From Modestobacter marinus (GTDB lineage: Bacteria; Actinomycetota; Actinomycetes; Mycobacteriales; Geodermatophilaceae), in NCBI RefSeq assembly GCF_011758655.1, contig NZ_JAAMPA010000001.1, positions 2,418,001 through 2,482,000 on the forward strand: a stretch of DNA of 64,000 nucleotides, in the 5' to 3' direction. The notes under the pieces were generated by a model. It was not told the DNA's origin. It searched no databases and saw nothing but the letters and a program-made list of their open reading frames with translations. Of the stretch, positions 3,707 to 61,731 are shown one piece after another. The first letter of the stretch is position 1; each line of letters opens with the position of its first letter. The position numbers were made by a program, and so were the translations under genes.

Positions 3707-3766
3707 CCCCCTCGCAGGGGCCCGCCGCGAGTGGGAGGACCCTCTCCCGGGGCGGGGGGCGAGGGG
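3707..3766 (-). terminator. Conserved-loop hairpin, copy C (after HAD gene)
   Basis: On the minus strand CCCCTCGC pairs with GCGAGGGG around a 43-base loop that begins CCCCCGCCCC and ends CGCGGCGGGCCCCT. It starts seven bases after the HAD stop, preceded by CGGAGGA. The same loop ends occur in the copies at 59431 and 61681, and the same upstream heptamer before the copy at 46851. Confidence 0.6.
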
Positions 3767-3773
3767 TCCTCCG

Positions 3774-4556
3774 TCAGATCAGCTCGATGACCTCGGCGAT
3801 CGAGGGCAGCACCCGGCTGGGCCGGAAGGGGAAGCGGCTGACGTCCTCGGCGCGGGTCGAGCCGGTCAGCACCAGGATGGTGTCCAGCCCGGCCTCGATG
3901 CCGGCGACGACGTCGGTGTCCATCCGGTCACCGATCATCGTGGTCGACTCCGAGTGCGCCTCGATCCGGTTCATCGCGCTGCGGAACATCATCGGGTTGG
4001 GCTTGCCGACGAAGTAGGGCTCGGCCCCGGTGGCCTTGGTGATCATCGCCGCGACCGAGCCGGTGGCGGGCAGCGGGCCCTCGGGGGAGGGGCCGGTGAC
4101 GTCGGGGTTGGTGGCGATGAACCGGGCGCCGGCGCCGACCAGCCGGACCGCCTGGGTGATCGCCTCGAACGAGTAGGTGCGGGTCTCCCCGAGGACGACG
4201 TAGTCCGGGTCGGTGTCGGTCATCGTGTAGCCCGCCTCGTGCAGCGCCGTGGTCAGGCCCGCCTCGCCGATGACGTAGGCCGAGCCGCCGGGCAGCTGGG
4301 AGGCCAGGAAGTCCGCCGTGGCCAGCGCCGAGGTCCAGATCGCGTGCTCGGGCACGTCCAGGCCGCTGCGGGCCAGCCGGGCGGACAGGTCGCGCGGGGT
4401 GAAGATCGAGTTGTTGGTCAGCACCAGGAAACGGCGGTCACGCTCGACCAGCCGGGCGAGGAAGTCGGCCGCGCCGGGCAGGGCCCTCCCCTCGTGCACC
4501 AGCACGCCGTCCATGTCGGTCAGCCAGCACTCGGACTCGCCGCGTTCGGTGGTCAC
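3774..4556 (-). CDS. HAD-IIA (NagD-like) phosphatase
   Basis: 260 residues. HAD motif I is DMDGVL near residue 14, motif II is the threonine of LTNN near residue 47, the lysine of motif III lies in FVGKPNPMM, and motif IV is GDRMDTDV. The long cap between motifs II and III is typical of subfamily IIA (NagD, p-nitrophenyl phosphatase). Such enzymes hydrolyse small phosphate esters or nucleotides in the cytosol. The gene lies 25 bases downstream of the end of nothing on its own strand except the GNAT gene at 4582, so it is probably the last gene of the psd-pssA-GNAT transcript or is transcribed separately. The physiological substrate is not predictable. Confidence 0.85.
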
Positions 4557-4581
4557 ACCGTTCTCCTGTCGGTCGGGTGGG

Positions 4582-5067
4582 TCAGCGGCGGTCGGCCGCG
4601 AACCGGGTCAAGGCGTCATCGGTGAGCCGGAAGACCGTCCACCCGTCCATCGGCACCGCACCGGCTGCTCTGTAGAACTCGATGGACGGGGTGTTCCAGT
4701 CGAGGACGGACCACTCCAGCCGGGCGAAGCCGCGCGTGACGCACTCGTCGGCCAGCGTCCGGAGCAGCTCGCGGCCCAGCCCGGTGCCGCGGTGGGCGGG
4801 GGAGACGTAGAGGTCCTCGAGGTACAGCCCGTGGGTGCCGCGCCAGGTCGAGAAGTTGAGGAACCACAGGGCGAAGCCGGCGATCTCGGCACCCTCCCCC
4901 TCCCCGGCGAGGGCGACGTGACCGAACAGCGCCGGGGACTCCCCGAACAGCGCGGCGTGCAGCTGCTCGGCGGTCATCCCGGCCTCGTGCTCGGACTCCT
5001 CGTAGGCGGCGAGCTCGCGGACCAGCCGCAGCACCGTCGGGACGTCGTCGGGGCGGACCCGGCGCAC
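4582..5067 (-). CDS. GNAT family N-acetyltransferase
   Basis: 161 residues. The acetyl-CoA binding loop reads [14 protein letters not shown] (the R/Q-x-x-G-x-G/A motif), preceded by the strand LYLEDLYV and followed by the C-terminal [18 protein letters not shown] that is typical of the diamine/spermidine acetyltransferase-like branch. The start chosen is the GTG at 5067, two bases after the pssA stop, because no other ATG or GTG gives a full domain; the gene is therefore translationally coupled to pssA. The acceptor is unknown; by family resemblance it may be an amine. A link with lipid synthesis is suggested only by the operon. Confidence 0.8.
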
Positions 5068-5069
5068 GC

Positions 5070-5867
5070 TCAGGACAGCACCTCCTTGATCCGTGCCGGG
5101 ACCAGCCGGCCCAGCGGGGTCAGCACCGGCATCACCAGCGGGGAGAACAGGTAGCTGTAGGCGACCACGAGGCAGGTGACGGTCGGGACGGTGAGCAGGC
5201 CGACGACGACCAGGACGACGGCGACGACCAGTCCGTAGGGCTTGCCGCTCTTCGGGCTGACCAGGGACCGGAACGAGCGGTAGCGGACGTTGCTGATCAT
5301 CAGCAGCCCGGGCACGACGACCACCAGCAGCACCCACAGCCGGTCGCGGCCCTGCATCAGGTCGGCGAACGCGAACACGCTGGCCAGCACCACCCCGGCC
5401 GCGCCGGGGCTGGGCAGGCCGGTGAAGAACCGCTTGTCCGCCGTCGGGTCGATCGTGGTGTTGAAGCGGGCGAGCCGGATGGCGGCGCAGGCCACCCAGA
5501 GGAAGCAGACCACCCAGCCGAGGGCGTCGAGGGAGTCCCGGCCGTCGGAGAACAGGGCGAAGGCCAGCAGGGCCGGGGCCAGGCCGAAGGAGACCAGGTC
5601 GGCCAGCGAGTCGAACTGCAGGCCGAAGGGTGAGACGGCGCCGACGAGCCGGGCGACCGCACCGTCGGCGATGTCGAAGACGACCGAGAGCGCGATCAGC
5701 AGGCAGGCCAGCCGGTACTCGCCGCGGAAGGCGACCAGGATGGCGCCGAAGCCGCACATCATGTTGGCCAGCGTGAACAGGCTGGGCAGCCACGAGCGAG
5801 CCCGCCGCCGGCCGCCGCGCACCGAACCACGGACGAACTCGACGGTGGTGGTGCGCCTCCCGGGCAT
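5070..5867 (-). CDS. pssA: CDP-diacylglycerol-serine O-phosphatidyltransferase
   Basis: 265 residues. It makes phosphatidylserine from CDP-diacylglycerol and serine at the membrane. The CDP-alcohol phosphotransferase motif D-G-x2-A-R-x8-G-x3-D-x3-D is present as DIADGAVARLVGAVSPFG followed by LQFDSLADLVSFG. Several hydrophobic segments follow, as expected for the family. GAGGAG stands eight bases before the ATG at 5867. It begins 11 bases after psd, so both enzymes of the phosphatidylethanolamine route are co-expressed: PssA makes the substrate that Psd decarboxylates. Confidence 0.92.
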   Translation of the reverse strand: MPGRRTTTVEFVRGSVRGGRRRARSWLPSLFTLANMMCGFGAILVAFRGEYRLACLLIALSVVFDIADGAVARLVGAVSPFGLQFDSLADLVSFGLAPALLAFALFSDGRDSLDALGWVVCFLWVACAAIRLARFNTTIDPTADKRFFTGLPSPGAAGVVLASVFAFADLMQGRDRLWVLLVVVVPGLLMISNVRYRSFRSLVSPKSGKPYGLVVAVVLVVVGLLTVPTVTCLVVAYSYLFSPLVMPVLTPLGRLVPARIKEVLS

Positions 5868-5878
5868 CCGCCGGCTCC

Positions 5879-6544
5879 TCAGCTGGGGGAGGACCAGCGG
5901 GCGATGACGGTCTCGCCGCCCCGCACCCGCTGCCCCTTCGTGACGGTGACGGTGCACTCGGGCGGCAGGAAGACGTCCATCCGGGACCCGAACTTCATCA
6001 GCCCGATCCGGTCGCCGGTGGCGACCTCCTGCCCGGGCACCACGCGGGTGACGATCCGCCGGGCGAGCACGCCGACGATCTGCCGGAAGACGACCGTGCG
6101 GTCGCCGTCGCGGACCCACAGCTCGCTGCGCTCGTTGCGGTGCGCGCTCTCCGCGCGGTAGGCGGCCAGGAAGCTGCCCGGGGTGTACGTGGAGGAGGTG
6201 ACCCGGCCGCCGTAGGGCGCGCGGTTCACGTGCACGTCGACGACGGACAGGAAGACGCTGACCTGCTGCCAGTCGCCCTCGGGCGCCACGCCCGGCTGCG
6301 CCTCACCGGCGACCATGACGACGCCGTCGGCCGGGGAGAGCACGTCGTCGGGGGAGGGCGGGACCGAGTCGCACTGCCGGTCGGGGTCACGGAAGAACAG
6401 GGCCATGTACGCCGACAGGGCGAGGAGGGGCCACGCCAGAAGGCGGGCCCCACGGAGACCGCTGCCCCGCCCCAGGGCGGTGGACACCGCCGCAGAGGCC
6501 AGGGGAACGGCGAGGAAGGGCCAGCCGGCCCGGTCGATGCGCAT
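5879..6544 (-). CDS. psd: Phosphatidylserine decarboxylase proenzyme
   Basis: 221 residues, the short class II (PSD-A) form. It converts phosphatidylserine to phosphatidylethanolamine and uses a pyruvoyl group formed by self-cleavage. The cleavage site is the Gly-Ser of LMKFGSRMDVFLP near residue 190. An N-terminal hydrophobic region (residues ~8-50) anchors it to the membrane, and FFRDPDR, SPADG and VHVNRAPYGG are family motifs. It is first in the operon psd-pssA-GNAT. A TAACCT box nine bases before the ATG suggests a nearly leaderless transcript. Confidence 0.92.
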   Translation of the reverse strand: MRIDRAGWPFLAVPLASAAVSTALGRGSGLRGARLLAWPLLALSAYMALFFRDPDRQCDSVPPSPDDVLSPADGVVMVAGEAQPGVAPEGDWQQVSVFLSVVDVHVNRAPYGGRVTSSTYTPGSFLAAYRAESAHRNERSELWVRDGDRTVVFRQIVGVLARRIVTRVVPGQEVATGDRIGLMKFGSRMDVFLPPECTVTVTKGQRVRGGETVIARWSSPS

Positions 6545-6553
6545 CGCAGACCG

Positions 6554-6559
6554 AGGTTA
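6554..6559 (-). promoter_or_regulatory. Candidate -10 box of the psd operon
   Basis: TAACCT on the minus strand, nine bases upstream of the psd ATG. It is identical to the box before the gene at 3223. Confidence 0.4.
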
Positions 6560-6609
6560 CCGGGACCGGGACCGAACGCCTGCCGACGGCGGTGTCGCGG
6601 CGGGCGGCC

Positions 6610-7842
6610 TCACCGGGAGGCGAGCCGTGGGCTGGCCCCGGTGCGGCTGTCGCGCTCGCGCGGCGGGCCGCCGTACCAGTCGAGGCAGACGACGGAGGCG
6701 TCGTCCCGCAGGACGCCACCGGTGGCGCGCAGCACCGCCTGCCCGAGCTCGTGCACGACCTCCCGGGGGTGCATCGAGGCCGTGGCGGCCAGCGCCGCTG
6801 CGACGTCGAGGGAGGCGGCGTTGCGCTCCTGCATCCCGTCGGTCACGAAGACGACGCGGTCGCCGGGCTCCAGCGGGAAGCGCTGCAGGCGGTACCCGGT
6901 GCCGGCCTCGACGCCGAACGGGAGGTCGATGGCCAGCTCGACCTCCTCCACCCGGCCGTCGCGGAGCCGCAGCGGGAAGGGGTGGCCGGCGTTCACGATC
7001 TGCGCCTCGAGGGTGTGCAGGTCCACGCGCATGACCTGGCCGGTGACGAACTCCCCGGCCGCCGAGTGCGTGGCGACGGCGTCGTTGGCGTTGCGCGTCT
7101 GGTCATCGAGGCCCAGCCCGCGGCGCCGCTCGTTGCGCAGGCTGCCCACCAGCAGCGTGGCCAGCAGGGCGGCGCCGACCTCGTGCCCGACCGCGTCGGT
7201 GATCGAGACCTGGAGCGAGTCCCGGTCCAGTGCGTAGTCGAAGGTGTCCCCGCCCACGGTCGCGGCCGGCTCCAGCCACCCGGCGAGGGTGAACTGCCCG
7301 GCCTCGCAGGTGAAGGCGCTGGGCAGCAACCGGCGCTGGATCTCCGCGGCCAGCGAGAAGGGCGTGGTGCGCTGGCCCCACTCGAAGAGGTCGGTGTGCC
7401 GCCGGTTGGCGATGATCACGTAGGCGAGGGCGTGGCCGGCCGCGGCGATGTCGGCCAGCTGCTGTTCGTCGGGCGGCTCGGGCAGCACCAGCTCCAGCAC
7501 GCCGAGGGCGTCGCCCCGGTCGGTGACCGGGACGATCACGCAGGTCCCGTCGTCGCTGCGCTGCACCACCGCCTGCTGGGTGCGCAGGACCTCTTCGTGG
7601 ACCGTGCCCTCCAGCCGGAGGGTCTCCGCGTGCTCGACGCCCTGGACGCGGGCACCGTCCGGCGCGCGGGTCGCCGTCCCGAGGCGGACCAGGGCGTGCC
7701 CGCTGAAGTCCGCGATCAGGAAGGACACCTCGGTCGCGCCGGACAGGGTGGCCAGCTCGTCGGCGACGGCGGTCACGGCGTCGATCGGCGCGGCTGCCTC
7801 CACGCGTTCGAGCAGGGCGCGCAGGTCGAAGTAGGACGTCAC
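6610..7842 (-). CDS. GAF-SpoIIE type PP2C phosphatase
   Basis: 410 residues. Residues ~10-165 look like a GAF-type sensory domain. Residues ~185-400 form a SpoIIE/RsbU phosphatase domain with the metal-binding aspartates in VGGDTFDY, ITDAVGHEVG, FVTDGMQE and RDDASVV. Such enzymes dephosphorylate anti-anti-sigma factors and so switch on alternative sigma factors. The GTG at 7842 is chosen because AGGAG lies 13 bases upstream and homology begins there; an in-frame GTG at 7914 would add 24 residues without a usable ribosome site. No anti-sigma partner is encoded nearby, so it must act on a distant pathway. The sensed ligand is unknown. Confidence 0.85.
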   Translation of the reverse strand: MTSYFDLRALLERVEAAAPIDAVTAVADELATLSGATEVSFLIADFSGHALVRLGTATRAPDGARVQGVEHAETLRLEGTVHEEVLRTQQAVVQRSDDGTCVIVPVTDRGDALGVLELVLPEPPDEQQLADIAAAGHALAYVIIANRRHTDLFEWGQRTTPFSLAAEIQRRLLPSAFTCEAGQFTLAGWLEPAATVGGDTFDYALDRDSLQVSITDAVGHEVGAALLATLLVGSLRNERRRGLGLDDQTRNANDAVATHSAAGEFVTGQVMRVDLHTLEAQIVNAGHPFPLRLRDGRVEEVELAIDLPFGVEAGTGYRLQRFPLEPGDRVVFVTDGMQERNAASLDVAAALAATASMHPREVVHELGQAVLRATGGVLRDDASVVCLDWYGGPPRERDSRTGASPRLASR

Positions 7843-7901
7843 GGGTGCGCTGGTCTCCTGGGTAGGGGGAGCTGCCACCCAGGACCGGCGGCAGGTACGA
7901 C

Positions 7902-7935
7902 ACTGCCGGGCCACCCTCGCGGATGACCCGGCAGT
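7902..7935. other. 9-bp hairpin between sodN and the phosphatase gene
   Basis: ACTGCCGGG (7902-7910) pairs with CCCGGCAGT (7927-7935) around a 16-base loop. It lies upstream of the phosphatase start and downstream of sodN. It may extend the sodN terminator or act in the phosphatase leader. Confidence 0.4.
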
Positions 7936-7939
7936 ACGG

Positions 7940-7958
7940 CCCCGTCCGCTGGACGGGG
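7940..7958 (-). terminator. sodN terminator hairpin
   Basis: CCCCGTCC and GGACGGGG form an 8-bp stem with a three-base loop, seven bases downstream of the sodN stop on the minus strand. Confidence 0.6.
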
Positions 7959-7965
7959 ACCTCGG

Positions 7966-8370
7966 TCAGGCAGCGGCCTTGGTCTCCCAGAAGATCTTGT
8001 CGATCTCGGCGATGTAGTCGAGCAGCTTCTGGCCCTCGGCGGGGTCCATGCTGCCCTTGCCGCCGGCGGCGCCGGCCTGCTTGGTCGCCTTGTTGAACAG
8101 CTCGTGCAGCTGCGGGTACTTCTCGAAGTGCGGGGGCTTGAAGTAGTCGGTCCACAGCACCCACAGGTGGTGCTTGACCAGCTCGGCCCGCTGCTCCTTG
8201 ATCAGGATGGCGCGGGTCCGGAAGACCGGGTCCTCGTTGCCCTGGTACTTCTCCTGGATGGCCTTGACCGACTCCGCCTCGATGCGGGCCTGGGCCGGGT
8301 CGTAGACGCCGCAGGGGAGGTCGCAGTGTGCGGTGGCCTCCACGGCGGAGAACATGCGGAACAGACGCAT
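7966..8370 (-). CDS. sodN: Nickel superoxide dismutase
   Basis: 134 residues. After removal of a 14-residue propeptide (MRLFRMFSAVEATA) the mature enzyme starts with the nickel hook HCDLPCGVYDP: His15 imidazole and N-terminus, Cys16 and Cys20 are the nickel ligands. The rest is the four-helix bundle of the NiSOD family. It converts superoxide to oxygen and peroxide in the cytosol as a hexamer. GGAGG lies eight bases before the ATG. The divergent gene at 8421 encodes the protease expected to expose His15. NiSOD genes are often repressed or induced by nickel-responsive regulators (Nur, SrnRQ); I see no recognisable operator in the short intergenic region. Confidence 0.97.
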   Translation of the reverse strand: MRLFRMFSAVEATAHCDLPCGVYDPAQARIEAESVKAIQEKYQGNEDPVFRTRAILIKEQRAELVKHHLWVLWTDYFKPPHFEKYPQLHELFNKATKQAGAAGGKGSMDPAEGQKLLDYIAEIDKIFWETKAAA

Positions 8371-8420
8371 GGGTGTGCCTCCGGGTTCGTGGGGATGGGT
8401 CTTCTGCGACCCTACCCGCG
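8371..8420. promoter_or_regulatory. Divergent sodN/sodX intergenic region
   Basis: Only 50 bases separate the two start codons, so the promoters must overlap each other or reach into the neighbouring coding sequence. GGAGG for sodN is at its left side. No perfect inverted repeat was found. Confidence 0.4.
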
Positions 8421-8798
8421 GTGATCACCGAGAACACGTCGAGCAGCGACGGCCCGGGCGGCGTCCCCGGGCTGCCGACCCGTTGGGTGCTGGCCCGGGT
8501 CGCCGGGCCGTCGATGTCGCCGACCGTGCGGCACGGGGACCGGCTGCTGGTCCGCCGGCTGCCGCCCGGGGCGGTGGTGCCGGCCGGCACGGTCGTGCTC
8601 GCCCGGTTCCCCGCGCGGCCGGAGCTGCTGGTGGTCAAGCGGGTCCGCCGCGCCGTGCCCGGCGGGCACTGGGTGGAGGGGGACAACCCGCTGGTCACCG
8701 ACGACTCCCGGGCCTTCGGGACGGCGGTCGTCGTCGGCCGGGTGGTGGCCCGGCTGCGGCCGCGCCCGGGGCGGCTGCCGGCTCCGCCGCCGGTCTGA
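8421..8798 (+). CDS. sodX: NiSOD maturation protease (S24/S26 signal peptidase-like)
   Basis: 125 residues. The S26 peptidase core is visible: the catalytic serine in VAGPSMSPTVRHGDRLLV near residue 30 and the lysine in ELLVVKRVRR near residue 75, with the closing motif GDNPLVTDDSRAFG. Unlike type I signal peptidases it has no membrane anchor, as in SodX, which is thought to remove the NiSOD propeptide. The GTG at 8421 is chosen because longer in-frame starts would run into the sodN coding region. In Streptomyces sodX follows sodN in the same direction; here the two are divergent. Confidence 0.85.
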   Translation: MITENTSSSDGPGGVPGLPTRWVLARVAGPSMSPTVRHGDRLLVRRLPPGAVVPAGTVVLARFPARPELLVVKRVRRAVPGGHWVEGDNPLVTDDSRAFGTAVVVGRVVARLRPRPGRLPAPPPV

Positions 8799-8819
8799 CC
8801 CGGTGGTGGGCGGGCCCGG

Positions 8820-9524
8820 TCAGCCCAGCCGGTCCAGCAGCGGGTCGACCAGGTCCCGCGCCCCGGTGTTGACGTAGAGCAGGACGACGGTCGCCACCAG
8901 GAACAGCGGCACCAGCACCGCCTTCTCCACGACCGCGCCGGTGCGCAGGTGCACCGGCGCGAGCCGGCTGCGCCGGGCCAGCCAGAAGACCGGGACCGGC
9001 ACGCCCTCCTTGGTCAGCCAGTCGCCGGCGATGTGGGTCAGGGTCCCGAGGGCGACGGCCAGCGGGAGCCACTGGGGGGCCGGGCTGTGGGCCAGCAGCA
9101 GCCACGCGCCGCCCCAGGAGAGGACGAGGTTGCCGATCACGGTGTTCTCCGCGCGGCCGGGGATGACGACGTGCAGCGCCCGCAGGGCCAGCCCGATCGC
9201 CAGCGCCAGCAGCAGCAGGCTCGACCAGCGGTGCCAGGTCGCCGCGGTGGCCAGCAGCCCGAAGGCCAGCGGGCCGAGGACGGCGTCGTGGGTGCCCCAG
9301 CGGTGGCCGCGGGCGATCGTGTTGACGACGCCGGAGGGCAGGTCGGTGAGCGGGCCCCACATCCCGGAGATGGTCGAACCGCGCTGGTCGAGGTCCGGGA
9401 GCATGGCGAAGCCGCCGACGGCGGAGACCCAGGCGACCTGGGCGACCGTGCCGTGCACCGGGACCCAGGGGAGGGTCGCGGCGCCGGCGGCCAGACCGGA
9501 CAGGGCGTGGGAGTGACCGAGCAC
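8820..9524 (-). CDS. Membrane-bound metal-dependent hydrolase (YdjM/DUF457 family)
   Basis: 234 residues. The N-terminus MLGHSHALSG and the motif LLPDLDQRGS (seen here as MLPDLDQRGS) with HRWGTHDAV give the conserved histidines and aspartates of the DUF457/YdjM family, and THIAGDWLTKEGV adds a further His/Asp pair. About five hydrophobic segments follow (~75-95, ~98-115, ~130-160, ~205-225). The family is an integral-membrane metal-dependent hydrolase whose substrate is unknown. It converges on sodX with 21 bases between the stops. Confidence 0.8.
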   Translation of the reverse strand: MLGHSHALSGLAAGAATLPWVPVHGTVAQVAWVSAVGGFAMLPDLDQRGSTISGMWGPLTDLPSGVVNTIARGHRWGTHDAVLGPLAFGLLATAATWHRWSSLLLLALAIGLALRALHVVIPGRAENTVIGNLVLSWGGAWLLLAHSPAPQWLPLAVALGTLTHIAGDWLTKEGVPVPVFWLARRSRLAPVHLRTGAVVEKAVLVPLFLVATVVLLYVNTGARDLVDPLLDRLG

Positions 9525-9647
9525 CTACTCAGCGTGCCGTCCGCCGGTCCCGGGGCGCTGGAGGCGCGCGGGACCCCCCGCCGCGGTCCGGCCGCACGGG
9601 TCCCGGGGGCCGTGCGCCGTCAGCCCAGCGGCGGGGCCGGGACGGCC

Positions 9648-9836
9648 CTACTCGTCGTCGTCGACGTCGTCCGTGCCGCCCCGGGCCAGCCAGGTGGCCA
9701 GCCGCTCGACCGGCACCTCGAAGTCGGGGTGCTGGTCGACGAAGGCCTGGAGCTGGTCGGCCAGCCAGGAGAGCGAGACCTCCTCCTCGCCCCGCCGGCC
9801 GGCCAGCTCCTCGATGCCGCGATCGGTGAAGTACAT
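9648..9836 (-). CDS. Small conserved helical protein downstream of kgd
   Basis: 62 residues, starting MYFTDRGIEELA and ending in an acidic tail (DDVDDDE). It is predicted to be helical, with no membrane segment or cysteine. It follows kgd by 23 bases on the same strand, so it is likely co-transcribed. I recognise it as an actinobacterial small-protein family (annotated DUF6104) that is often beside kgd. The function is unknown. G/C at third positions supports a real gene. Confidence 0.7.
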   Translation of the reverse strand: MYFTDRGIEELAGRRGEEEVSLSWLADQLQAFVDQHPDFEVPVERLATWLARGGTDDVDDDE

Positions 9837-9859
9837 CGTGCTGCCCCGCCCCGCCGGGC

Positions 9860-13792: not shown

Positions 13793-13966
13793 GGGGTCGA
13801 GTGCCTTCTTCGTCGAGGGACGTCGTTGGACCGGGTGCCGACTTTACGCCCCCGGTCCCGGGGTGCAGCGCTCCGTCGTGACATGCCGCACGTGTCCCGG
13901 GTCACGGGCGGCTGTCGACCCGCGGGAAACGGCACCGCGCGGTCCGGTGCGCCGCCGGGACGGGCG

Positions 13967-46438: not shown

Positions 46439-46843
46439 GTGACCACCGCTGTCCTGGTCCTCGTCGGGCTGCTGCTGGTCGCGCTGGTCGCCGCCTTCCT
46501 GCTGCGCCGCCGGTTCCTGCTCTCCGGGCTGGGGGCGGTCACCATGTGGCTGCGTGCGCCGGGCACCTCCCGGTGGGCCGTGGGCGTCGCCTGGTACTCC
46601 GGCGACATGCTGCTCTGGTACCGCGCCCTGTCGCTGTCGGTCCGCCCCAACCGGCGACTGTGCCGGGCGCAGTTCCAGGTCGACGCCCGGCGCCGTCCGA
46701 CCGCGGCGGACCTGTCGCTGCCCGACGAGAGCGTGATCCTCACCGTCCGCACCGGGTCCGGGCCGCAGGAGCTGGCGATGGACTCCTCGACGGTGACCGG
46801 GTTCCTGTCCTGGATCGAGTCCGCCCCGCCGGTCGACCGCTGA
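46439..46843 (+). CDS. DUF2550 membrane protein
   Basis: 134 residues. One N-terminal membrane helix (~3-22) and a cytosolic beta-rich domain of the DUF2550 family ([30 protein letters not shown]). Matches Rv1312, found next to atpC in mycobacteria. GTG start. Function unknown. Confidence 0.85.
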
Positions 46844-46850
46844 CGGAGGA

Positions 46851-46891
46851 CCCCGCTGCCCCCACGCTCCGCGAGGACTCCCGCAGCGGGG
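46851..46891 (+). terminator. Hairpin, copy D (after DUF2550 gene)
   Basis: CCCCGCTGC pairs with GCAGCGGGG around a 23-base loop that begins CCCCACGCTC. It starts seven bases after the stop, preceded by CGGAGGA as in copy C. The loop lacks the GGCGGGCCCCT end of copies A-C. Confidence 0.6.
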
Positions 46892-46914
46892 CCGTCCGGT
46901 GGCCCAGGTGGTGT

Positions 46915-47532: not shown

Positions 47533-47597
47533 GGAGATGGACCTCGCCGCCCCCACCCCTCGCGGGCGCGGCGTGCGAGCCCGCGGCGGGGCCACCT

Positions 47598-51413: not shown

Positions 51414-51442
51414 TTGACAGTCGATCGACAGCGAGCGAATCT
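51414..51442 (+). promoter_or_regulatory. Promoter of the DUF2975-regulator pair
   Basis: TTGACA (51414-51419), 17 bases, GAATCT (51437-51442), then six bases to the ATG: a consensus housekeeping promoter with a leaderless start. A 10-bp palindrome GTCGATCGAC (51420-51429) fills the spacer and is a candidate operator for the downstream regulator. Confidence 0.6.
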
Positions 51443-51448
51443 CGATCC

Positions 51449-51943: not shown

Positions 51944-52188
51944 TGCCGATCGTCGTGCGCATCGACGTGGAGCTGGCCAAGCGGAAGATGGGCGTCGGGG
52001 AGTTCGCCGAACGGGTCGGGCTCACCCCGGCCAACGTGGCGGTGCTGAAGAACGGCCGGGCCAAGGCCGTCCGCTTCAGCACCCTGGAGGCGATGTGCCG
52101 GGTGCTGGACTGCCAGCCCGGCGACCTCCTCGAGTGGGTCGAGGACGACCACGCCGAGCCGCGCCCCGCGGAGGCGGCCCACCACTGA
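51943..52188 (+). CDS. Cro/CI (XRE)-family small regulator
   Basis: 81 residues. A single helix-turn-helix domain: MGVGEFAERVGLTPANVAVLKNG with RFSTLEAMCRVLDCQPGDLLEW, the YozG-like short form. Coupled to DUF2975 by a one-base overlap. It may act on the palindrome in the upstream promoter. Acidic His-rich tail. Confidence 0.88.
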   Translation: MPIVVRIDVELAKRKMGVGEFAERVGLTPANVAVLKNGRAKAVRFSTLEAMCRVLDCQPGDLLEWVEDDHAEPRPAEAAHH

Positions 52189-52212
52189 CCGGCCGCCGGC
52201 CCGGTGCCGCGG

Positions 52213-53244: not shown

Positions 53245-53343
53245 GGTGCTCCCCACCTCGACGACGCGTGACCGGATCATCTCCTGTCCGCCGTCGGGGG
53301 CACCGGGCGGCACCGGGCGCCGCGGTGCAGGGAGGGCCGGGCC

Positions 53344-54543: not shown

Positions 54544-54605
54544 GACGGGCTCCGGCGGAACCACCTCGTCCCGATACACCGGCGGGTCGCCCGCACCACC
54601 CCGGG

Positions 54606-55337
54606 TCAGGGCACCCGGGGCCCGAACCGGACGTCGACGCCGGGGGAGAAGAGCACGCTGTCCGGGGCCCCGCCCACCGTGGGCAGACCGGCCGCCGCGA
54701 CCAGGTCGTCCTCGAGGTGGAGCAGCTCCGCGGTGTGCAGCGGCCACTCCGGGTGCTCGTTCGGCCAGTAGGCCAGCCGGCCCCGGGTCTCCTGGTGCAG
54801 CCCCCAGCGGCTGGTGAGGAACCGGGGCAGCGGCCCGGGGTCGGCCAGCCGGTCACCCACCCGGACGGCGACGGTGCCGCCGGCGCCCCGGGGGCCGGGC
54901 CAGCGGCGGGCCGCCCGGTAGGTGATCCGGTCGCCGTCGCGGGTGGTGCTCATCCGGGACCACAGGTAGGGCAGCCGGGCGACCCAGCGGGCGGCCAGCA
55001 CCGGCAGCAGCCGGTCGGCCTCCAGCGACCGGAAGACCACGCCCCGCCGTCCCTGGTCGTCGACCGAGTACAGCCGCACGTTCGTCTCGGCGAAGGAGCC
55101 GAGCCAGGGCAGCCCCGGCGCCCCGAGCAGGCCGATCCGGCGCATCCGGAAGGGGATGAGGCCGACGTGCGTCACGCCGTCCAGCTCGTCGGGCCGGGTG
55201 CCGGCCGGCAGCAGCGGGGCCACCAGGGCCGGGTCGACGGCCCAGTGCAGGAAGGTGACGTCGCGCCAGCCCTGGGTGAAGACCGTGCGGCGCACCGGCC
55301 GGGGTGACGTGGGGCTGATGCTCTCGGCGGCGCTCAC
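54606..55337 (-). CDS. DUF2071 family protein
   Basis: 243 residues, YqjF/DUF2071 fold (acetoacetate decarboxylase-like): WRDVTFLHWAVDPALVAPLLPAGTRPD, VGLIPFRMR, GSFAETNVRLY. Family function is unknown. GTG at 55337 begins four bases after the DedA stop, so the two genes form a pair. Confidence 0.83.
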   Translation of the reverse strand: MSAAESISPTSPRPVRRTVFTQGWRDVTFLHWAVDPALVAPLLPAGTRPDELDGVTHVGLIPFRMRRIGLLGAPGLPWLGSFAETNVRLYSVDDQGRRGVVFRSLEADRLLPVLAARWVARLPYLWSRMSTTRDGDRITYRAARRWPGPRGAGGTVAVRVGDRLADPGPLPRFLTSRWGLHQETRGRLAYWPNEHPEWPLHTAELLHLEDDLVAAAGLPTVGGAPDSVLFSPGVDVRFGPRVP

Positions 55338-55341
55338 CCGG

Positions 55342-55992
55342 TCAGCCTGCCCCCACCTCGGCCCGAGCGCGCTCGGCCACCGCGTCGCCGGGGGTCCGGC
55401 GCCGTCCCAGCAGGGACCGCAGGCCCTCGCCGAGCGCGGCGAGTGCCAGGGCCAGGCCGAGGCCCAGCAGCAGGCCACGGAGCGGGTCCCGCTCGAAGGC
55501 CAGCCCGCCCACGTACCCGACGCCGGCCGACCAGCCGGCCCAGGTGAGGGCGGCCAGCGCGGCGAACGGGGTGAACCGGCGCAGCGGCCAGCCCACGGCC
55601 CCGGCGGTCAGCGTGACCGCCGTCCGCAGCCCCGGCACGTACCGGGCGGTGACCAGCAGGACGCCGCCGCGTGCGGCCAGCAGCCGGCCCGCCCGGTCCA
55701 GCGCCGCCCGGCGCCGGCTGCCCGGCCGCGCCCCGGCGTGCAGCCGGGGGCCGGCCCGCTGCCCGATCAGGTAGGAGGCGTGGTCGCCGGCGAAGGCGCC
55801 CAGTGCGGCCACCGCGACCACCCCCGCCAGGTCCGGCTGCCCGGTGGCGGCGAAGACCCCGGCGGTGATCACCACGCTCTCGCCGGGCACGACGGGCAGG
55901 AAGCCGTCGAGGGCGGCCAGCGAGAACAGCACCAGGTACACCCACGGCGAGGCCATCAGCTCCTGGACCCACCCGAGGACGGCGTCGGTCAC
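55342..55992 (-). CDS. DedA family membrane protein
   Basis: 216 residues, VTT/DedA fold: LDGFLPVVPGESVVITAG, ALGAFAGDHASYLIG, RYVPGLRTAVTLTAG and about five membrane segments. Members of the family flip undecaprenyl-phosphate or phospholipids across the membrane and affect envelope homeostasis. GGGGAG lies six bases before GTG at 55992. Confidence 0.88.
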   Translation of the reverse strand: MTDAVLGWVQELMASPWVYLVLFSLAALDGFLPVVPGESVVITAGVFAATGQPDLAGVVAVAALGAFAGDHASYLIGQRAGPRLHAGARPGSRRRAALDRAGRLLAARGGVLLVTARYVPGLRTAVTLTAGAVGWPLRRFTPFAALAALTWAGWSAGVGYVGGLAFERDPLRGLLLGLGLALALAALGEGLRSLLGRRRTPGDAVAERARAEVGAG

Positions 55993-56319
55993 GGTCGGCT
56001 CCCCGGGGACGGCATGCCCCGAGCCTGCTCGGCCGGCCCGCCGGGCACATCCACCTGGAGTCGTCACCGGCGTCCACCGGGAGGATGACGGGGCGGCGTC
56101 TTCCGGCGGGCCCGCCCCGGGTCGCGGGCCCGCGATCATGATCCGGCTCACCCCGCGGAATGACCGGCGGCGGTGTGCGCCTTCGCCTGCACGTGACCGA
56201 TCTCTGGGGGCTGACGCGGCGGCGCGTCGTCGACCACGGGCGGATGACCACCTCCCGCTAGGGGCGCGCACGGTCCCCGTCCCTCCACCACCCCCGCACC
56301 GCCCAGAGAGGCACTCCCC
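55993..56319. promoter_or_regulatory. Divergent region between DedA and symporter genes
   Basis: 327 bases with no convincing gene. CCGCGATCATGATCC contains the palindrome GATCATGATC (56131-56142 region). A possible ribosome site AGAGAGG stands before the symporter GTG. I cannot place promoters reliably. Confidence 0.4.
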
Positions 56320-57693
56320 GTGCTCGCACGTCTCCGCCGCGTCCCGTTCGCGGTCCAGGTCCTGCTCGGCCTGGTCATCGGCATCGCCCTCGGCCTGGTC
56401 GCCCGCGCGATGGGCCCGGTCCCCGGCTCCTTCGTCGACGGCGTCCTGGTGCCCGGCACCGACGCCAACTGGCTGACCAGCACCCTCACCACCATCGGCA
56501 ACACCTTCGTCGGACTGCTCCGGGCGATCGTCGTCCCGCTGATCGTCACCGCGATCATCGTCAGCATCGCCAACCTCAAGCAGGTCTCCAACGCCGCGCG
56601 GCTGGCCGGCCAGACCCTGCTGTGGTTCGCCATCACCTCGCTGATCGCGGTCTCGATCGGCATCGGCCTGGGGCTGCTGACCCGGCCTGGTGACCGCAGC
56701 TCCGTCGACGCGGGCCTGGCCACCTACGAGGGGGGCTCGGGGTCGTGGTGGGACTTCCTCACCGGCCTCGTCCCGGCCAACTTCCTCGGCCTGGAGGGCG
56801 GCGCGGACGGCGTCAGCTTCAACATCCTGCAGCTGATCGTCGTCTCGGTGGCCATCGGCATCGCCGCGCTCAAGGTCGGCGCGGCCGCCGACCCGTTCCT
56901 GTCGGTCACCCGCTCGGTGCTGGCGATCGTGCAGAAGGTGCTCTGGTGGGTCATCCTGCTCGCCCCGATCGGCACCGTCGGCCTGATCGGCAAGGCCGTG
57001 GCCAGCTACGGCTGGGGGTCCCTGGGCTCGCTGGGCGTCTTCGTCGGCGCTGTCTACGCGGGCCTGGCGATCGTGCTGCTGGTCGTCTACCCGGTGCTGC
57101 TCAAGCTGCACGGCCTCTCGCCGCTGCGCTTCTACGCCGGTGCGTGGCCGGCCATCCAGCTCGCGTTCGTCTCCCGCAGCTCCATCGGCACGCTGCCGGT
57201 GACCCAGCGGGTGACCGAGGCCGACCTCGGCGTCCCGCGCAGCTACGCCTCGTTCGCCGTCCCGCTCGGCGCCACGACGAAGATGGACGGCTGCGCGGCG
57301 ATCTACCCGGCGCTGGCCGCGATCTTCGTGGCCGGGTTCTTCGACGTCGACCTCTCGATCACCGACTACCTGCTGATCGCCCTGGTGTCGGTGGTGGGCT
57401 CGGCGGCGACCGCGGGGGTGACCGGCGCGGTGGTGATGCTGACCCTCACGCTGTCCACGCTGGGGCTGCCGCTGGCCGGCGTCGGCCTGCTGCTGGCGGT
57501 CGACCCGATCCTGGACATGGGTCGCACCGCCACCAACGTCACCGGCCAGGCACTGGTGCCCACGATCGTCGCCAAGCGCGAGGGGCTGCTGGACCTCGAC
57601 CGGTTCAACTCCACCCGCACCGCCGACCCGCTCGCCCCCGTCGAGCAGCGCGACGGGGTGGACGCAGACCTGCGCTCGCCGCAGCAGGTGTGA
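56320..57693 (+). CDS. Dicarboxylate/amino acid:cation symporter (DAACS)
   Basis: 457 residues, eight membrane helices plus two re-entrant loops, as in GltP/DctA. Hallmarks are the serine-rich loop SRSSIGTLPVT, TTKMDGCAAI in helix 7 and DMGRTATNVTGQALVP in helix 8, which bind substrate and cations. It imports C4-dicarboxylates or glutamate/aspartate driven by Na+ or H+. GTG at 56320 with AGAGAGG upstream. Confidence 0.9.
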   Translation: MLARLRRVPFAVQVLLGLVIGIALGLVARAMGPVPGSFVDGVLVPGTDANWLTSTLTTIGNTFVGLLRAIVVPLIVTAIIVSIANLKQVSNAARLAGQTLLWFAITSLIAVSIGIGLGLLTRPGDRSSVDAGLATYEGGSGSWWDFLTGLVPANFLGLEGGADGVSFNILQLIVVSVAIGIAALKVGAAADPFLSVTRSVLAIVQKVLWWVILLAPIGTVGLIGKAVASYGWGSLGSLGVFVGAVYAGLAIVLLVVYPVLLKLHGLSPLRFYAGAWPAIQLAFVSRSSIGTLPVTQRVTEADLGVPRSYASFAVPLGATTKMDGCAAIYPALAAIFVAGFFDVDLSITDYLLIALVSVVGSAATAGVTGAVVMLTLTLSTLGLPLAGVGLLLAVDPILDMGRTATNVTGQALVPTIVAKREGLLDLDRFNSTRTADPLAPVEQRDGVDADLRSPQQV

Positions 57694-57700
57694 TCCGGGC

Positions 57701-57726
57701 GCTCCCCGGGCCGCGGCCCGGGGAGC
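57701..57726. terminator. 26-bp palindrome between convergent genes
   Basis: The 26 bases from GCTCCCCGGGCCG onward are a perfect palindrome (arms of 13 bases), seven bases after the symporter stop and nine bases past the lipoprotein stop. It can end transcription from both sides. Confidence 0.85.
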
Positions 57727-57735
57727 ACACCGCGG

Positions 57736-58662
57736 TCAGTCGGTCAGGTCGGCGCAGCCGGACTCGTGCGGCAGCAGCGGGCGGAAGGTGATCGACCAGC
57801 GTGCGCCGTCCGCCCCGACCCAGGGGGTCAGGGTGGTGGCGTCCCGGGCCGCGTCGGCGACGTCCTGGGCCTGGTCGCCCGTCGCCGTTACGCAGGTCAC
57901 CCCGGGGGCGACCGGCTCGCCCGGCAGCGCCGGCCCCGGCCAGGGCACCTCCGGGTGGGTCAGGTCGTCACCCGGCTCCGTCCACGGCCCGGCCAGCGCC
58001 GCGACCGCCTCCGGTCGGTAGGACTCCGGTGGCTGACCCTCGCCGTACAGGGTCTGCGAGAGGTCGGTCAGCTCGTCGAGCAGGTCTTGCAGCTGGGCCC
58101 GCGCCTCCTCCTGCTGCTCGGTGAGCCCACCGGCGCCCGGCTCCCCGGGCAGCCCACCGACGCCTGCGGTCTCCCGGAGTGCGTACACCTCCCGCTGCAC
58201 GGTCCGGTCGGCGGTGTGCAGGGTGAACCGGGTGGAGGTGGCATCGGCCAGGGGCGGGGAGCCCAGGTCGGTCGTCTCGGCGATGCCGGCGTCCAGCGCC
58301 CGCTCGGCGAGCTGCTGCACGGTGGCCTCGTCGACCTCCTGCACCTGGACGTTGGGCCAGGCCGGCCCGGGGTACATCTCCGGCACCGGCCCCTGGGTGA
58401 TCACCCGGCCGTCGGCGTAGACGCTCACGATCGGCAGCCGCCCGGCCAGCATCTCCGGCGTCGTGAAGCCGCCGACGTCGGCCACCTGGACCACCAGCGT
58501 GTCCTCGCCCGCCGGCAGCGCGACGTCGGCCGACCCCGTCGGCGTCGCGCTGGACGGACCGGGCGGCGCCGCCCCGGCCCCGCCCCGCTCGGCGCAGGCG
58601 GTCAGCAGCGAGACCGCCAGCAGCAGGCCGGCGGCGGGACGGAGGGCAGGTGGGTTCCGCAC
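57736..58662 (-). CDS. Putative lipoprotein of unknown function
   Basis: 308 residues. Signal peptide with lipobox LLTAC (Cys ~20), then a Gly/Ala/Pro linker and a ~240-residue extracytoplasmic domain ([29 protein letters not shown]). Two or three cysteines near the C-terminus. I do not recognise the domain. GTG at 58662 chosen because the signal peptide starts there; it diverges from nucS with 91 bases between starts. Confidence 0.72.
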
Positions 58663-58739
58663 GGGGAGTACACGGCCCGGCGGCCCGGCGGGTTCCGGGC
58701 GGGGTCCCCGCCGGTGCGGAGGGCGGCTCCGGCGGCCGG

Positions 58740-58745
58740 TAGCGT
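58740..58745 (+). promoter_or_regulatory. Candidate -10 box of nucS
   Basis: TAGCGT, eight bases before the GTG at 58754; near-leaderless. Confidence 0.45.
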
Positions 58746-58753
58746 CGACGTCC

Positions 58754-59425
58754 GTGCGCCTGGTCATTGCCCGCTGCTCCGTGGACTACATCGGGCGGCT
58801 CACCGCCCATCTCCCGCCCGCCACCCGGCTGCTGCTGGTCAAGGCCGACGGCTCGGTGTCCATCCACGCCGACGACCGGGCCTACAAGCCGCTGAACTGG
58901 ATGAGCCCGCCGTGCGCGCTCAAGGACGAGCTCGTCGACGGCGCCGGTACCTGGACGGTCACCAACAAGGCCGGCGAGCAGCTGGTCATCACGATCGAGT
59001 CGGTCGAGCACGACTCCCGGCACGACCTCGGGGTCGACCCCGGCCTGCAGAAGGACGGCGTGGAGGCCGACCTGCAGCGCCTGCTCGCGCTGCACGTGGA
59101 GACCTTCGGCGCCGGTTGGTCGCTGGTGCGCCGCGAGTACCCGACCGCGATCGGCCCGGTCGACCTGCTCTGCCGGGACGCCGGCGGCGCGACGGTGGCC
59201 GTCGAGATCAAGCGCCGCGGCGAGATCGACGGGGTCGAGCAGCTGACCCGCTACCTGGAGCTGCTCAACCGCGACCCGCGGCTGGCGCCGGTCAAGGGCG
59301 TCTTCGCCGCCCAGGAGATCAAGCCGCAGGCCCGGGTGCTGGCCGCCGACCGCGGCATCGACTGCCTCACCGTCGACTACGCCGTCCTCAAGGGCACCGA
59401 CGACCCCTCCCAGCGCCTGTTCTAG
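58754..59425 (+). CDS. nucS: Mismatch endonuclease NucS/EndoMS
   Basis: 223 residues. It cuts both strands at G-T, G-G and T-T mispairs and replaces MutS-MutL in most actinobacteria. The C-terminal RecB-like nuclease site is [21 protein letters not shown] followed by QLTRYLELL; the N-terminal domain binds DNA. The final residues QRLF match the sliding-clamp binding end of NucS. GTG start. The hairpin family copy A follows the stop. Confidence 0.95.
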
Positions 59426-59427
59426 GA

Positions 59428-59485
59428 GGGCCCCGTCGCCCCCCACCACCCGCTCCGCGCGCGGCGGGCCCCTGCGACGGGGCCC
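59428..59485 (+). terminator. Conserved-loop hairpin, copy A (after nucS)
   Basis: GGGCCCCGTCGC (59428-59439) pairs with GCGACGGGGCCC (59474-59485), a 12-bp stem. The 34-base loop begins CCCCCACCAC and ends CGCGGCGGGCCCCT, as in copy B. Confidence 0.75.
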
Positions 59486-59564
59486 CGGCTACCGGCCGGT
59501 AGCACCCCGGGAGGCCGGTGGTGGGAAACTGCTCGCGATCACCGGACGGCGGAGGGACGGCACC

Positions 59565-61346
59565 GTGGCCAGAGAACTGACCGAGGTCGGCGTGGTGGGG
59601 CTGGGCACGATGGGCGCCGGCATCGCCGAGGTGCTCGCCCGGGCCGGGCTGTCGGTGACGGCGGTCGAGGTGACCGACGAGGCGCTGGCGCGGGGACGGG
59701 CGCACGTCGAGCAGTCGACCGGCAAGGCCGTCGCCCGCGGGAAGCTCGAGGCCGGTGACCGCGACGCCATCCTGTCCCGGATCCGGTTCACCACCGCGAT
59801 GGAGGACCTCGCCGTCGCCGAGCTGGTCGTGGAGGCCATCCCCGAGCGGATGGAGCTCAAGGCCCAGCTGTTCTCGAAGCTGGACGCGATCTGCCCGCCG
59901 GACACCATCCTGGCGACCAACACCTCCAGCCTGTCGGTCACCGAGCTGTCGGTCACCACCGGCCGCCCCGGCAAGGTGATCGGGATGCACTTCTTCAACC
60001 CGGCGCCGGTGATGAAGCTGGTCGAGATCGTGCGCACCGTGGTCACCGAGCCCTCGGTCGTCGAGGACGTCGAGGCGCTGGCCGCGCGGCTGGGCAAGAT
60101 CGACGTGACCATCGGCGACAAGGCGGGGTTCATCGCCAACGCGCTGCTGTTCGGCTACCTCAACCACGCCGTCTCGATGTTCGAGAACCGCTACGCCAGC
60201 CGCGAGGACATCGACGCCGCGATGCGGCTGGGCTGCGGCCTGCCGATGGGCCCGCTGGCGCTGATGGACCTCATCGGGATCGACACCGCCTACGAGATCC
60301 TCGTGACGATGTACCAGCAGTCGCGCAACCGGCTGCACGCCCCCGCGCCGATCATCAAGCAGATGATGACCGCCGGGCTGCTGGGCCGGAAGAGCGGCCG
60401 CGGCTTCTACACCTACGCCGGCCGCGACTCCGCCGAGGTCGTCCCGGACGCCGCGACGCCGGCCACCGGCGGCGCCGCCGAGGGGGCGCGCCCGGTCCGC
60501 AGCGTGGGCGTCGTGGGCTCCGGGACCATGGCCGTCGGGATCGTCGAGGTGGTCGCCAAGGCCGGCTACGACGTCACCTTCGTCGCCCGCACCGTGGACA
60601 AGGTCGAGGCCGTGCAGCACGCGCTGACCCGGTCGCTGGACAAGCAGGTCGCCCGCGGCCGGCTGGAGGAGGCCGAGCGGGACGCCGCGCTCGCCCGGGT
60701 CACCGGCTCGGCCCGGCTCGACGACCTCGCCGACGCCGACCTGGTCATCGAGGCCGTGGTCGAGCACCTGGGCGTCAAGCAGGCCCTGTTCGCCGCGCTC
60801 GGGGACATCGCCAAGGCCGGCGCGGTGCTCGCCACCACCACCTCCAGCCTGCCGGTCATCGAGTGCGCGAAGGCCAGCGAGCGCCCCGGCGACGTCGTCG
60901 GCCTGCACTTCTTCAACCCCGCGCCGGTGATGAAGCTGGTCGAGGTGGTCTCGACGATCGCCACCGAACCCGACGTCGCCGCCACCGCGCACGCGCTCTG
61001 CGCGCAGCTGGGCAAGCACGCGGTGTCCTGCACCGACCGCGCCGGGTTCGTCGTCAACGCGCTGCTGTTCCCCTACCTCAACGACGCGGTCAAGATGCTG
61101 GAGGCGCACTACGCCACCGCCGACGACATCGACGCCGCGATGAAGGTCGGCTGCGGCTACCCGATGGGCCCCTTCGAGCTGCTGGACGTCGTCGGCCTGG
61201 ACGTCGCCCTGGCGATCGAGCGGGAGCTGTACACGGAGTTCCGCGAGCCCGGGTTCGCCCCCGCGCCGCTGCTCGAGCACCTGGTCACCGCCGGTTACCT
61301 GGGCCGCAAGGCCGGCCGCGGCTTCCGCGACCACGCGAACCGCTGA
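59565..61346 (+). CDS. Tandem-domain 3-hydroxybutyryl-CoA dehydrogenase
   Basis: 593 residues made of two full copies of the ~285-residue 3-hydroxyacyl-CoA dehydrogenase. Each half has an NAD loop (GLGTMGAGIA; GSGTMAVGIV), the catalytic His in HFFNPAPVMKLVE, and a C-terminal helical domain (CGLPMGPLALMDLIG; CGYPMGPFELLDVVG). The first half keeps NTSSLS, whereas the second has TTSSLP, so one active-site Asn is changed. It interconverts acetoacetyl-CoA and 3-hydroxybutyryl-CoA, feeding the ethylmalonyl-CoA pathway or fatty acid oxidation. Such double-length proteins are known in Streptomyces. Confidence 0.92.
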   Translation: MARELTEVGVVGLGTMGAGIAEVLARAGLSVTAVEVTDEALARGRAHVEQSTGKAVARGKLEAGDRDAILSRIRFTTAMEDLAVAELVVEAIPERMELKAQLFSKLDAICPPDTILATNTSSLSVTELSVTTGRPGKVIGMHFFNPAPVMKLVEIVRTVVTEPSVVEDVEALAARLGKIDVTIGDKAGFIANALLFGYLNHAVSMFENRYASREDIDAAMRLGCGLPMGPLALMDLIGIDTAYEILVTMYQQSRNRLHAPAPIIKQMMTAGLLGRKSGRGFYTYAGRDSAEVVPDAATPATGGAAEGARPVRSVGVVGSGTMAVGIVEVVAKAGYDVTFVARTVDKVEAVQHALTRSLDKQVARGRLEEAERDAALARVTGSARLDDLADADLVIEAVVEHLGVKQALFAALGDIAKAGAVLATTTSSLPVIECAKASERPGDVVGLHFFNPAPVMKLVEVVSTIATEPDVAATAHALCAQLGKHAVSCTDRAGFVVNALLFPYLNDAVKMLEAHYATADDIDAAMKVGCGYPMGPFELLDVVGLDVALAIERELYTEFREPGFAPAPLLEHLVTAGYLGRKAGRGFRDHANR

Positions 61347-61349
61347 CCG

Positions 61350-61673
61350 GTGCCGCGCCGAGGGGGCTCACGGCGTGGTCCGGGCCGCGCCCGGACCACG
61401 CAGCCGGGGCGTGGGCCGGTGGCGGCCCGGCAGCCGGTCGAGGAGGCCTCCGACGGCGACTGGGTGGTGCGGCCGCTCACCGGGGCCGGCAGCGACAAGA
61501 GCTACCGCTGCCCGGGGTGTGACCAGCTGATCCCGCCCCGGACGCCGCACGTGGTCACCTGGCCGGCCTACGCCCGGGACTCCGACCTGGACCCGTGGGA
61601 CACCGACTCGGCCGCCGACTGGCGCCGGCACTGGCACACCGTGTGCTGGCGGGCCCGCGGCCGCCGGCGCTGA
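61350..61673 (+). CDS. Small zinc-finger-like protein
   Basis: 107 residues. A basic N-terminus (1-27) is followed by a domain with YRCPGCDQLIPPRTPHVV, Asp/Trp-rich WPAYARDSDLDPWD, then HWHTVCW: two Cys plus His and Cys could hold a zinc ion. It starts three bases after the dehydrogenase stop, so the two genes form an operon. Related actinobacterial proteins are annotated as ATP/GTP-binding, without proof. Function unknown. Confidence 0.7.
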   Translation: MPRRGGSRRGPGRARTTQPGRGPVAARQPVEEASDGDWVVRPLTGAGSDKSYRCPGCDQLIPPRTPHVVTWPAYARDSDLDPWDTDSAADWRRHWHTVCWRARGRRR

Positions 61674-61680
61674 GAAAGGA

Positions 61681-61731
61681 CCCCGGTGCCCCCCACCACT
61701 CGCACGCTCGCGGCGGGCCCCTGCACCGGGG
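61681..61731 (+). terminator. Conserved-loop hairpin, copy B
   Basis: CCCCGGTGC (61681-61689) pairs with GCACCGGGG (61723-61731). The 33-base loop begins CCCCCACCAC and ends CGCGGCGGGCCCCT. Seven bases after the stop, preceded by GAAAGGA. Confidence 0.75.

Follow-up and report, generated by a model that had tools for sequence, protein, structure and literature searches.

A dispersed palindromic repeat anchored at stop codons in Modestobacter marinus and other Geodermatophilaceae

Repetitive extragenic palindromic (REP) sequences are short, high-copy bacterial palindromes that collect at gene ends. According to PMC3733652 their termini often provide the stop codon of a flanking open reading frame (ORF), and those tagged with CGTC are palindromes without a dedicated transposase; the folded single strand, which contains conserved irregularities, is reported to be recognised strand-specifically (PMC8266576). 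Hairpin 3' ends which lack a U tract are reported to be frequent in Streptomyces clavuligerus (PMC8269248). We analysed 64,000 nucleotides (nt) of Modestobacter marinus (assembly GCF_011758655.1, contig NZ_JAAMPA010000001.1, positions 2,418,001 to 2,482,000; hereafter the window, C1:2418001-2482000 of the 5.10 Mb, 12-contig genome), in which an initial annotation made from the letters alone had marked four hairpins behind genes (copies A to D). All four exist, with perfectly paired arms, and we found that they belong to a high-copy, two-stemmed repeat which is nearly restricted to the family Geodermatophilaceae and sits mostly at stop codons.

The repeat resembles the GTAG-tagged REPs and bacterial interspersed mosaic elements (BIMEs) served by REP-associated tyrosine transposases (RAYTs, or TnpA-REP) in being a high-copy, extragenic, imperfect palindrome at gene ends which shares bases with stop codons and forms tandem clusters, and its strand-specific irregular hairpin is also REP-like. 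However, GTAG is not conserved: at any one foot and orientation it was present in at most 2/103, 13/149 and 2/60 copies of our three copy sets (103 copies from the M. marinus genome plus sets of 149 and 62, giving 314 copies), and the 13 cases lie on the strand on which GTAG arises from a G followed by a TAG stop. Unlike in RAYT-associated REPs, no Y1_Tnp gene was found in 108 genomes. A GTAG REP with RAYT was rejected on these tag and transposase tests and, since both fail, we do not file the element as a REP; in our reading it is a dispersed palindrome that behaves like a REP but lacks the REP hallmarks. Its length of 59 nt, its two stems, stem bases which vary with pairing kept and its mostly fixed gap to stop codons also set it apart. 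It shares with CGTC REPs a palindrome and the lack of a dedicated transposase, but CGTC occurred at any one foot and orientation in at most 24/103, 16/149 and 7/60 copies. The main text of PMC3733652 mentions neither Geodermatophilus, Modestobacter, Frankia, Streptomyces nor Actinobacteria. No prior description of the repeat was found in the literature searched, most subscription journals lying outside its coverage. REPs that lie no more than 15 nt from a stop codon are reported to affect translation in Escherichia coli, a statement not found in the literature searched.

The repeat unit is 59 nt long and sharply bounded, with little conserved beyond it except the stop codon. It consists of G[A/G]AGGACC, a variable stem arm, CCCCCCACC, a second stem with its tip, GGCGGGNCCCT, the matching arm and GGCCG. 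The outer stem has 9 base pairs (bp), is closed by GG/CC and carries one bulged base; inside it lie an internal loop of fixed form, an 8-bp inner stem and a conserved tip. What had been described in the initial annotation as a fixed loop is this second stem and its tip, as that annotation had itself considered, and our analysis speaks neither for nor against the loop-binding protein which it named as another possibility. Its observation that stem bases change with pairing kept applies to both stems: among 103 distinct copies of the host genome both sides of a pair were changed in 183 cells, compared to 51 ± 9 in column shuffles which ignore relatedness among copies, and slid-register controls dropped to 8-27 such cells, in an alignment that was fitted to the model and has an inner register differing from the one later preferred. 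Selection on RNA structure, which that annotation had proposed, is one possible cause among others. The copies behave as dispersed repeats that are gained, lost and nested in one another, so that a hairpin in single-stranded DNA or arm-to-arm template correction could yield equal covariation.

Some variants of the unit were also seen. A second subfamily has the stem GTCC and the inner stem CTCACCCC/GGGGCGAG (L256, L274, L280, L283-L285 and L383:3471-3527). Units or half-units form tandem arrays at L004 (~1430-1560), L028 (~1400-1520), L031 (~1430-1520), L050 (1407-1559) and G011:C24:140449-140639, with a period of 66 nt in one genome.

A covariance model was built from 22 seed copies, all from outside the window and collected with a pattern fixing C36 and C39. 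It gave at least 122 matches in the host genome (E ≤ 0.1) among at most 150 scored candidates; in 458 kb that were scanned directly it found 24 (E ≤ 0.01), which extrapolates to roughly 270 copies per genome. Within Geodermatophilaceae, 101/112 genomes and 9/12 genera had matches at E ≤ 0.001, with per-genome counts which are lower bounds (most at least about 49). In the same survey zero matches were found in genera g6, g7 and g8 (nine genomes), G001 and G029, and two or three each in G007, G017 and G076. An order-wide search found matches in 30/200 genomes, of which 27 were Geodermatophilaceae (G029 being the family genome without a match among the genomes listed) and three came from other families. 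These three (G164 and G248 with two matches each, G173 with one) perhaps represent recent transfers or contamination. The core pattern found at least 118 stretches; the 80 listed belong to Geodermatophilus, Blastococcus, Modestobacter, Trujillonella or relatives that are unnamed or known as metagenome-assembled genomes. The outcome named in the initial annotation as refuting its reading, with few further copies, no conserved loop and no bias to stop codons, was clearly not the one obtained. Against Rfam, the window gave only a tRNA at gathering score and three copy-bearing loci gave 0 matches up to E 1. No match to the core pattern was found in IMG/VR, and so no phage carrier was seen in that collection.

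The placement behind stop codons that had been noted for the four hairpins is a strong bias of the whole set: a same-strand stop was found within -3 to +9 nt of the copy start in 82/103, 108/149 and 42/62 copies (232/314 in total). These anchored stops comprised 198 TGA, 27 TAG and 7 TAA. TGA with a spacing of two bases accounted for 136 of the 232, and 15 of the 27 TAG-anchored copies had a gap of 0, the G of the stop doubling as the first G of the unit. At one site in the host genome the unit supplies the GA of the TGA stop, preceded by a T; the stop of two relatives at this position is TAG.

With genes called by a simple codon-usage caller, the 103 host copies were found between tandem genes (n = 55), between convergent genes (n = 32), next to opposite-strand genes only (n = 8), between divergent genes (n = 1), within genes (n = 4) and at edges (n = 3). 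An enrichment at convergent ends was looked for in our own stretch and was not found (13/288 tandem and 5/121 convergent ends). Where an opposite-strand gene lies downstream, its end is no more than 3 nt away from the element in 9/40, 10/63 and 5/24 cases. After subtraction of the element, which itself lengthens the gap it occupies, only 1/31 element-bearing tandem gaps was shorter than 10 nt, compared to 208/735 element-free gaps in three genomes, and that single gap, of -22, is likely a gene miscall. Some copies lie between the two genes of the pairs JAB/ThiS-like, acyl carrier protein/ketoacyl synthase, DivIC/DUF501 and malate/isocitrate dehydrogenase. Several of these gene pairs are usually co-transcribed, and copies inside such operons fit a hairpin which does not stop sense transcription. 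There was no clear support for an additional terminator being commoner at element ends: in tandem gaps of at least 20 nt and convergent ends, other perfect hairpins were found in 9/44 cases with the element and 97/838 without. Long perfect hairpins do stand directly 3' of some elements (L378 after 7546, L380 after 13081, L420 after 14667 and L417 after 6234), some of them followed by TGCGTTC; these are probably ordinary terminators of this genus.

The hairpins had been taken to face the same way as the genes that they follow, but the strand which folds better is the opposite one, as the A.C mismatches of the inner stem on the gene strand are G.U pairs on the other. Among model-found copies, the non-Watson-Crick pairs read on the gene strand were A.C:G.U = 79:10, 129:5 and 60:0 in the three sets, counted in those copies that are exactly 59 nt long (54 rows of 103, 93 of 149 and 49 of 62; longer and shorter copies were dropped) and biased by the C36 and C39 fixed in the seed pattern; all of set two and part of set three derive from loci retrieved with the core pattern, in which A20 and a large part of the tip are fixed as well. 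A rescan blind to the loop required an outer stem of at least 8/9 Watson-Crick pairs, GG/CC ends and a stop codon nearby and, with A.C and G.U counted as equivalent, retained the candidates that have an inner helix (18/19 and 148/149 retained). In 1.26 Mb from three chromosomes the 18 candidates had an inner A.C:G.U of 21:0; the 148 candidates in all fetched DNA had 167:2. The gene-strand A.C cells are standard pairs on the opposite strand, so that across the three model-found sets standard pairs make up 89.7/90.5/92.0% of cells in sense and 96.4/97.5/98.7% in antisense. The predicted fold was more stable in antisense for 101/103, 144/149 and 61/62 copies, and with DNA parameters for 163/184.

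The tail of the hairpin differs between the strands as well. A criterion applied to 3' ends of S. clavuligerus asks for at least 3 U among the 8 nt that follow the stem (PMC8269248). Counted in this way, the antisense strand has at least 3 T behind the 9-bp stem in 89/100, 128/141 and 54/59 copies (67/100, 110/141 and 45/59 when counted behind the closing GG/CC), with part of this T contributed by the stop codon itself. On the sense strand the corresponding numbers were 3/100, 11/141 and 3/59. T behind the hairpin being almost exclusively antisense, any efficient termination would be of transcription arriving from downstream. The repeat thus has the stable hairpin and U-containing tail of an intrinsic terminator facing the opposite way and lacks the U-rich tail of one serving the anchored gene. 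It resembles intrinsic or U-less (I-shaped) terminators in having a GC-rich hairpin just past the stop and a U-containing antisense tail, but differs from them in the strand of that tail relative to the anchored gene, in its conserved tip and internal loop and in its repeat dynamics. By analogy with known RNA motifs, the tip may form sheared G.A pairs in tandem around a CNUG loop; Watson-Crick pairs replaced the tip G.A in 2/54 host copies.

Copies are gained and lost between related genomes. Across 20 relatives, the 3' ends of the DUF2550 gene, nucS and the small ORF which precede copies B, C and D were found as empty sites, with copies that have other stems and with collapsed hairpins. We compared G100 and G101, in which flank identity is 91-99.7% (mostly 95-98%). 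Of the 17 sites in G100, 7 were matched in G101, two of these by a different or nested copy, and 10 had no model match at the same gene end; 6/13 sites in G101 had no model match in G100, a turnover which is slightly overstated, as the G101 copy L402:19053 was scored absent from G100 and is present there below threshold. Nesting of copies within copies was seen repeatedly. Filled and empty sites were compared with regard to the target-site duplication of a miniature inverted-repeat transposable element (MITE); empty sites are present, and the borders often show replacement. In 14 hand-picked pairs of apparently vertically inherited sites (genomes are shared between pairs, which are therefore not independent; 7 of 21 pairs were omitted, 3 because they were scored as different, 3 for a replaced element and 1 for truncated copies), differences were found at 18/323 positions of the outer stem, 73/513 of the inner part and 110/572 of the downstream flank. 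One pair shows a matched two-sided change, CTC/GAG to TTC/GAA. The nucS copy of G100 decayed without compensation, and selection at any single site is thus modest.

In three cases a member of the second subfamily was nested in another copy, replacing ~10 nt (L381:18164 in the host genome, L398:17002 in G101 and the DUF2550 end of G089).

The reading that we rank first, at slightly under even odds (about 0.48), is a dispersed, turning-over, REP-like palindromic repeat which spreads as a folded antisense strand, survives at stop codons and probably acts there as an antisense-facing terminator. Its working form would be a single folded strand antisense to the anchored gene. On that strand G.U takes the place of A.C at the recurrent positions, and the conserved 12-mer CGAG-CNTG-CGAG could pair as tandem G.A around a very small loop. 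Spread would most likely occur by copying or joining of this strand. A copy landing at a stop codon would cut no protein and, its sense strand being without a U tail, would not block the sense transcript. Once settled, it would probably also stop transcription entering the gene from downstream, via the short U-containing antisense tail; such termination is probably a local effect of the spreading repeat. A family-wide repeat which has no known mover and alters many gene 3' ends between related species opens several questions to testing: by what means a palindrome is directed to stop codons, whether strand-asymmetric wobble pairs can show which strand of a repeat is the working one and whether one-way antisense terminators exist in actinobacteria. 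The wobble-asymmetry test itself is general and cheap.

Several results weigh against a repeat that spreads in this way. No mobilising enzyme was found in a search which covered the Y1, Y2 and reverse-transcriptase families. The Y1 HUH transposase (PF01797) was found in 0/108 genomes, with controls positive in 5/14. The IS91-type Y2 family (PF04986) was found in 1/108, a genome without copies, in a search whose sensitivity is unproved as all 14 control genomes were negative. Reverse transcriptases (PF00078) were found in 47/108 genomes and did not track the copies: the copy-rich G106, G089 and G107 had no match. No target-site duplication could be delimited, and several gains replace sequence and are not clean insertions. 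TGA stands at the expected place in only 6/81 non-anchored copies, which weakens TGA as a fixed target triplet and leaves the anchoring unexplained by a plain TGA target. The A.C asymmetry lies almost wholly at inner positions 20-39 and 23-36, which elsewhere are also G-C, C-G or A-T, and is 5:1 and 2:0 in the remaining inner stem; the seed pattern fixes C36 and C39 of these pairs, and the core pattern with which further loci were fetched also fixes A20. In the outer stem the asymmetry is weak: the model-found copies, which are related to one another, give 20:7 (P = 0.019 by sign test), and the loop-blind scan gives 13:5 (P = 0.096) in all DNA and a reversed 0:2 in the 1.26 Mb. About half of the energy gap between the strands persists after in silico repair of the A.C mismatches, and energy alone is thus weak evidence.

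Two other results of the mover search should be noted. The host genome has two reverse-transcriptase matches (G000:C1:253935-254585 and C3:347514-348206), and 16 of the 22 genomes of the genus that were listed have one, many within open frames of 476-490 amino acids. An autonomous element flanked by two copies was rejected: we inspected six loci at which two copies lie close together (L015, L232, L248, L372, L378 and L231), and of ten genes from the first four of them that were searched in Pfam none was a transposase.

A more specific version, which we hold to be rather doubtful, is a 59-nt mobile hairpin directed to stop codons as stops and not to TGA. It would move as a single folded strand whose tip has tandem G.A pairs, through an enzyme other than a Y1 or Y2 HUH transposase, and leave behind a one-way terminator which shields the gene end from antisense transcription.

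That antisense-facing termination is the main function and the one selected, with the hairpin and its UCCUUC tail on the opposite strand ending convergent or pervasive antisense transcription exactly at the coding end, is unlikely. It would explain why T is confined to the antisense tail and why the inner-stem G.U pairs fall on that strand and, being one-way, it could stand in operons as well as at convergent ends, in line with the tandem and convergent contexts of the host copies. The outer stem is also the least changed part at shared sites, and some collapsed copies retain it. However, copies turn over between close species, the tail has only ~3-4 T in 8, an opposite-strand gene end is only sometimes within 3 nt, and such a role has no need of a fixed two-base gap. 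A quite unlikely alternative is an ordinary U-less terminator or protector of mRNA 3' ends on the gene strand, spread by copying. The hairpin is stable there too (mean about -33 kcal/mol), element-bearing tandem gaps are rarely operon-like and the U-lacking 3' ends of S. clavuligerus reported in PMC8269248 offer a precedent, but this explanation has to contend with A.C in place of G.U in the inner stem, the rarity of T behind the hairpin, copies between genes of usual operons and the fact that other downstream hairpins are not rarer at element ends. Least likely of all is purely mutational covariation, in which template switching between the arms of a DNA palindrome rewrites them with no selection for the fold, as it fits the collapse of copies into short perfect hairpins and stems that differ at several bases with matching partners but leaves the strand-asymmetric A.C positions, the conserved tip and the stop-codon anchoring unexplained.

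The copies of the window and the genes beside them are listed in Table 1. When hairpins with perfect, CCCC-led arms of 8 to 10 bases were sought in the window, copies A to D made up four of the seven distinct ones, more than chance would give, and the model built from copies outside it recovered D, C, B and A in this order of score (E 4e-15 to 1.4e-4).

Table 1 Copies of the repeat and flanking genes in the window (positions counted from its first letter)
Feature	Position	Strand	Remarks
Copy A	3704..3771	minus	Outer stem CCCCTCGC/GCGAGGGG, enlarged tip; covariance model 32.7 bits
Gene upstream of copy A, HAD-like hydrolase	3774..4556	minus	TGA stop 3776-3774
Convergent gene opposite copy A	3223..3705	plus	TAG stop overlaps distal end of copy A
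Copy B	46846..46894	plus	Collapsed copy with intact outer stem and shortened inner part; 33.1 bits
DUF2550 gene upstream of copy B	46439..46843	plus	TGA stop 46841-46843
Weak candidate fifth match, doubtful	47537..47594	plus	29.2 bits, E 8e-4; divergent gene gap
Copy C	59426..59485	plus	Immediately 3' of nucS TAG (59423-59425); 54.3 bits
Endonuclease NucS gene upstream of copy C	58754..59425	plus	Pfam, run on longer ORF 58463-59425
Copy D	61676..61734	plus	Near family consensus; 82.6 bits
Small ORF upstream of copy D	61419..61673	plus	TGA stop 61671-61673

The gap from the stop codon to the start of the model match is 2 nt for A, B and D and 0 nt for C. Of the details given in the initial annotation, the conserved loop end CGCGGCGGGCCCCT, claimed for A, B and C, is present in A, C and D and missing from B, the loop of which is only 23 nt, and the flanking motifs had been permuted: CGGAGGA stands before A and B (not C and D) and GAAAGGA before D (not B), while C directly follows its TAG. 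The exact 16-mer of the loop end, CGCGGCGGGCCCCTGC, occurs 17 times in the genome, compared to once for a reversed control. The doubtful fifth match has no called same-strand gene ending upstream, and no element was found at that place in G101 or G100. Copy A occupies the entire gap between its two convergent genes. At the 3' end of nucS a copy related to copy C was found in G102, G100, G103, G086 and G105 and none in G101, and the small ORF before copy D is present in 19 of the 20 relatives inspected.

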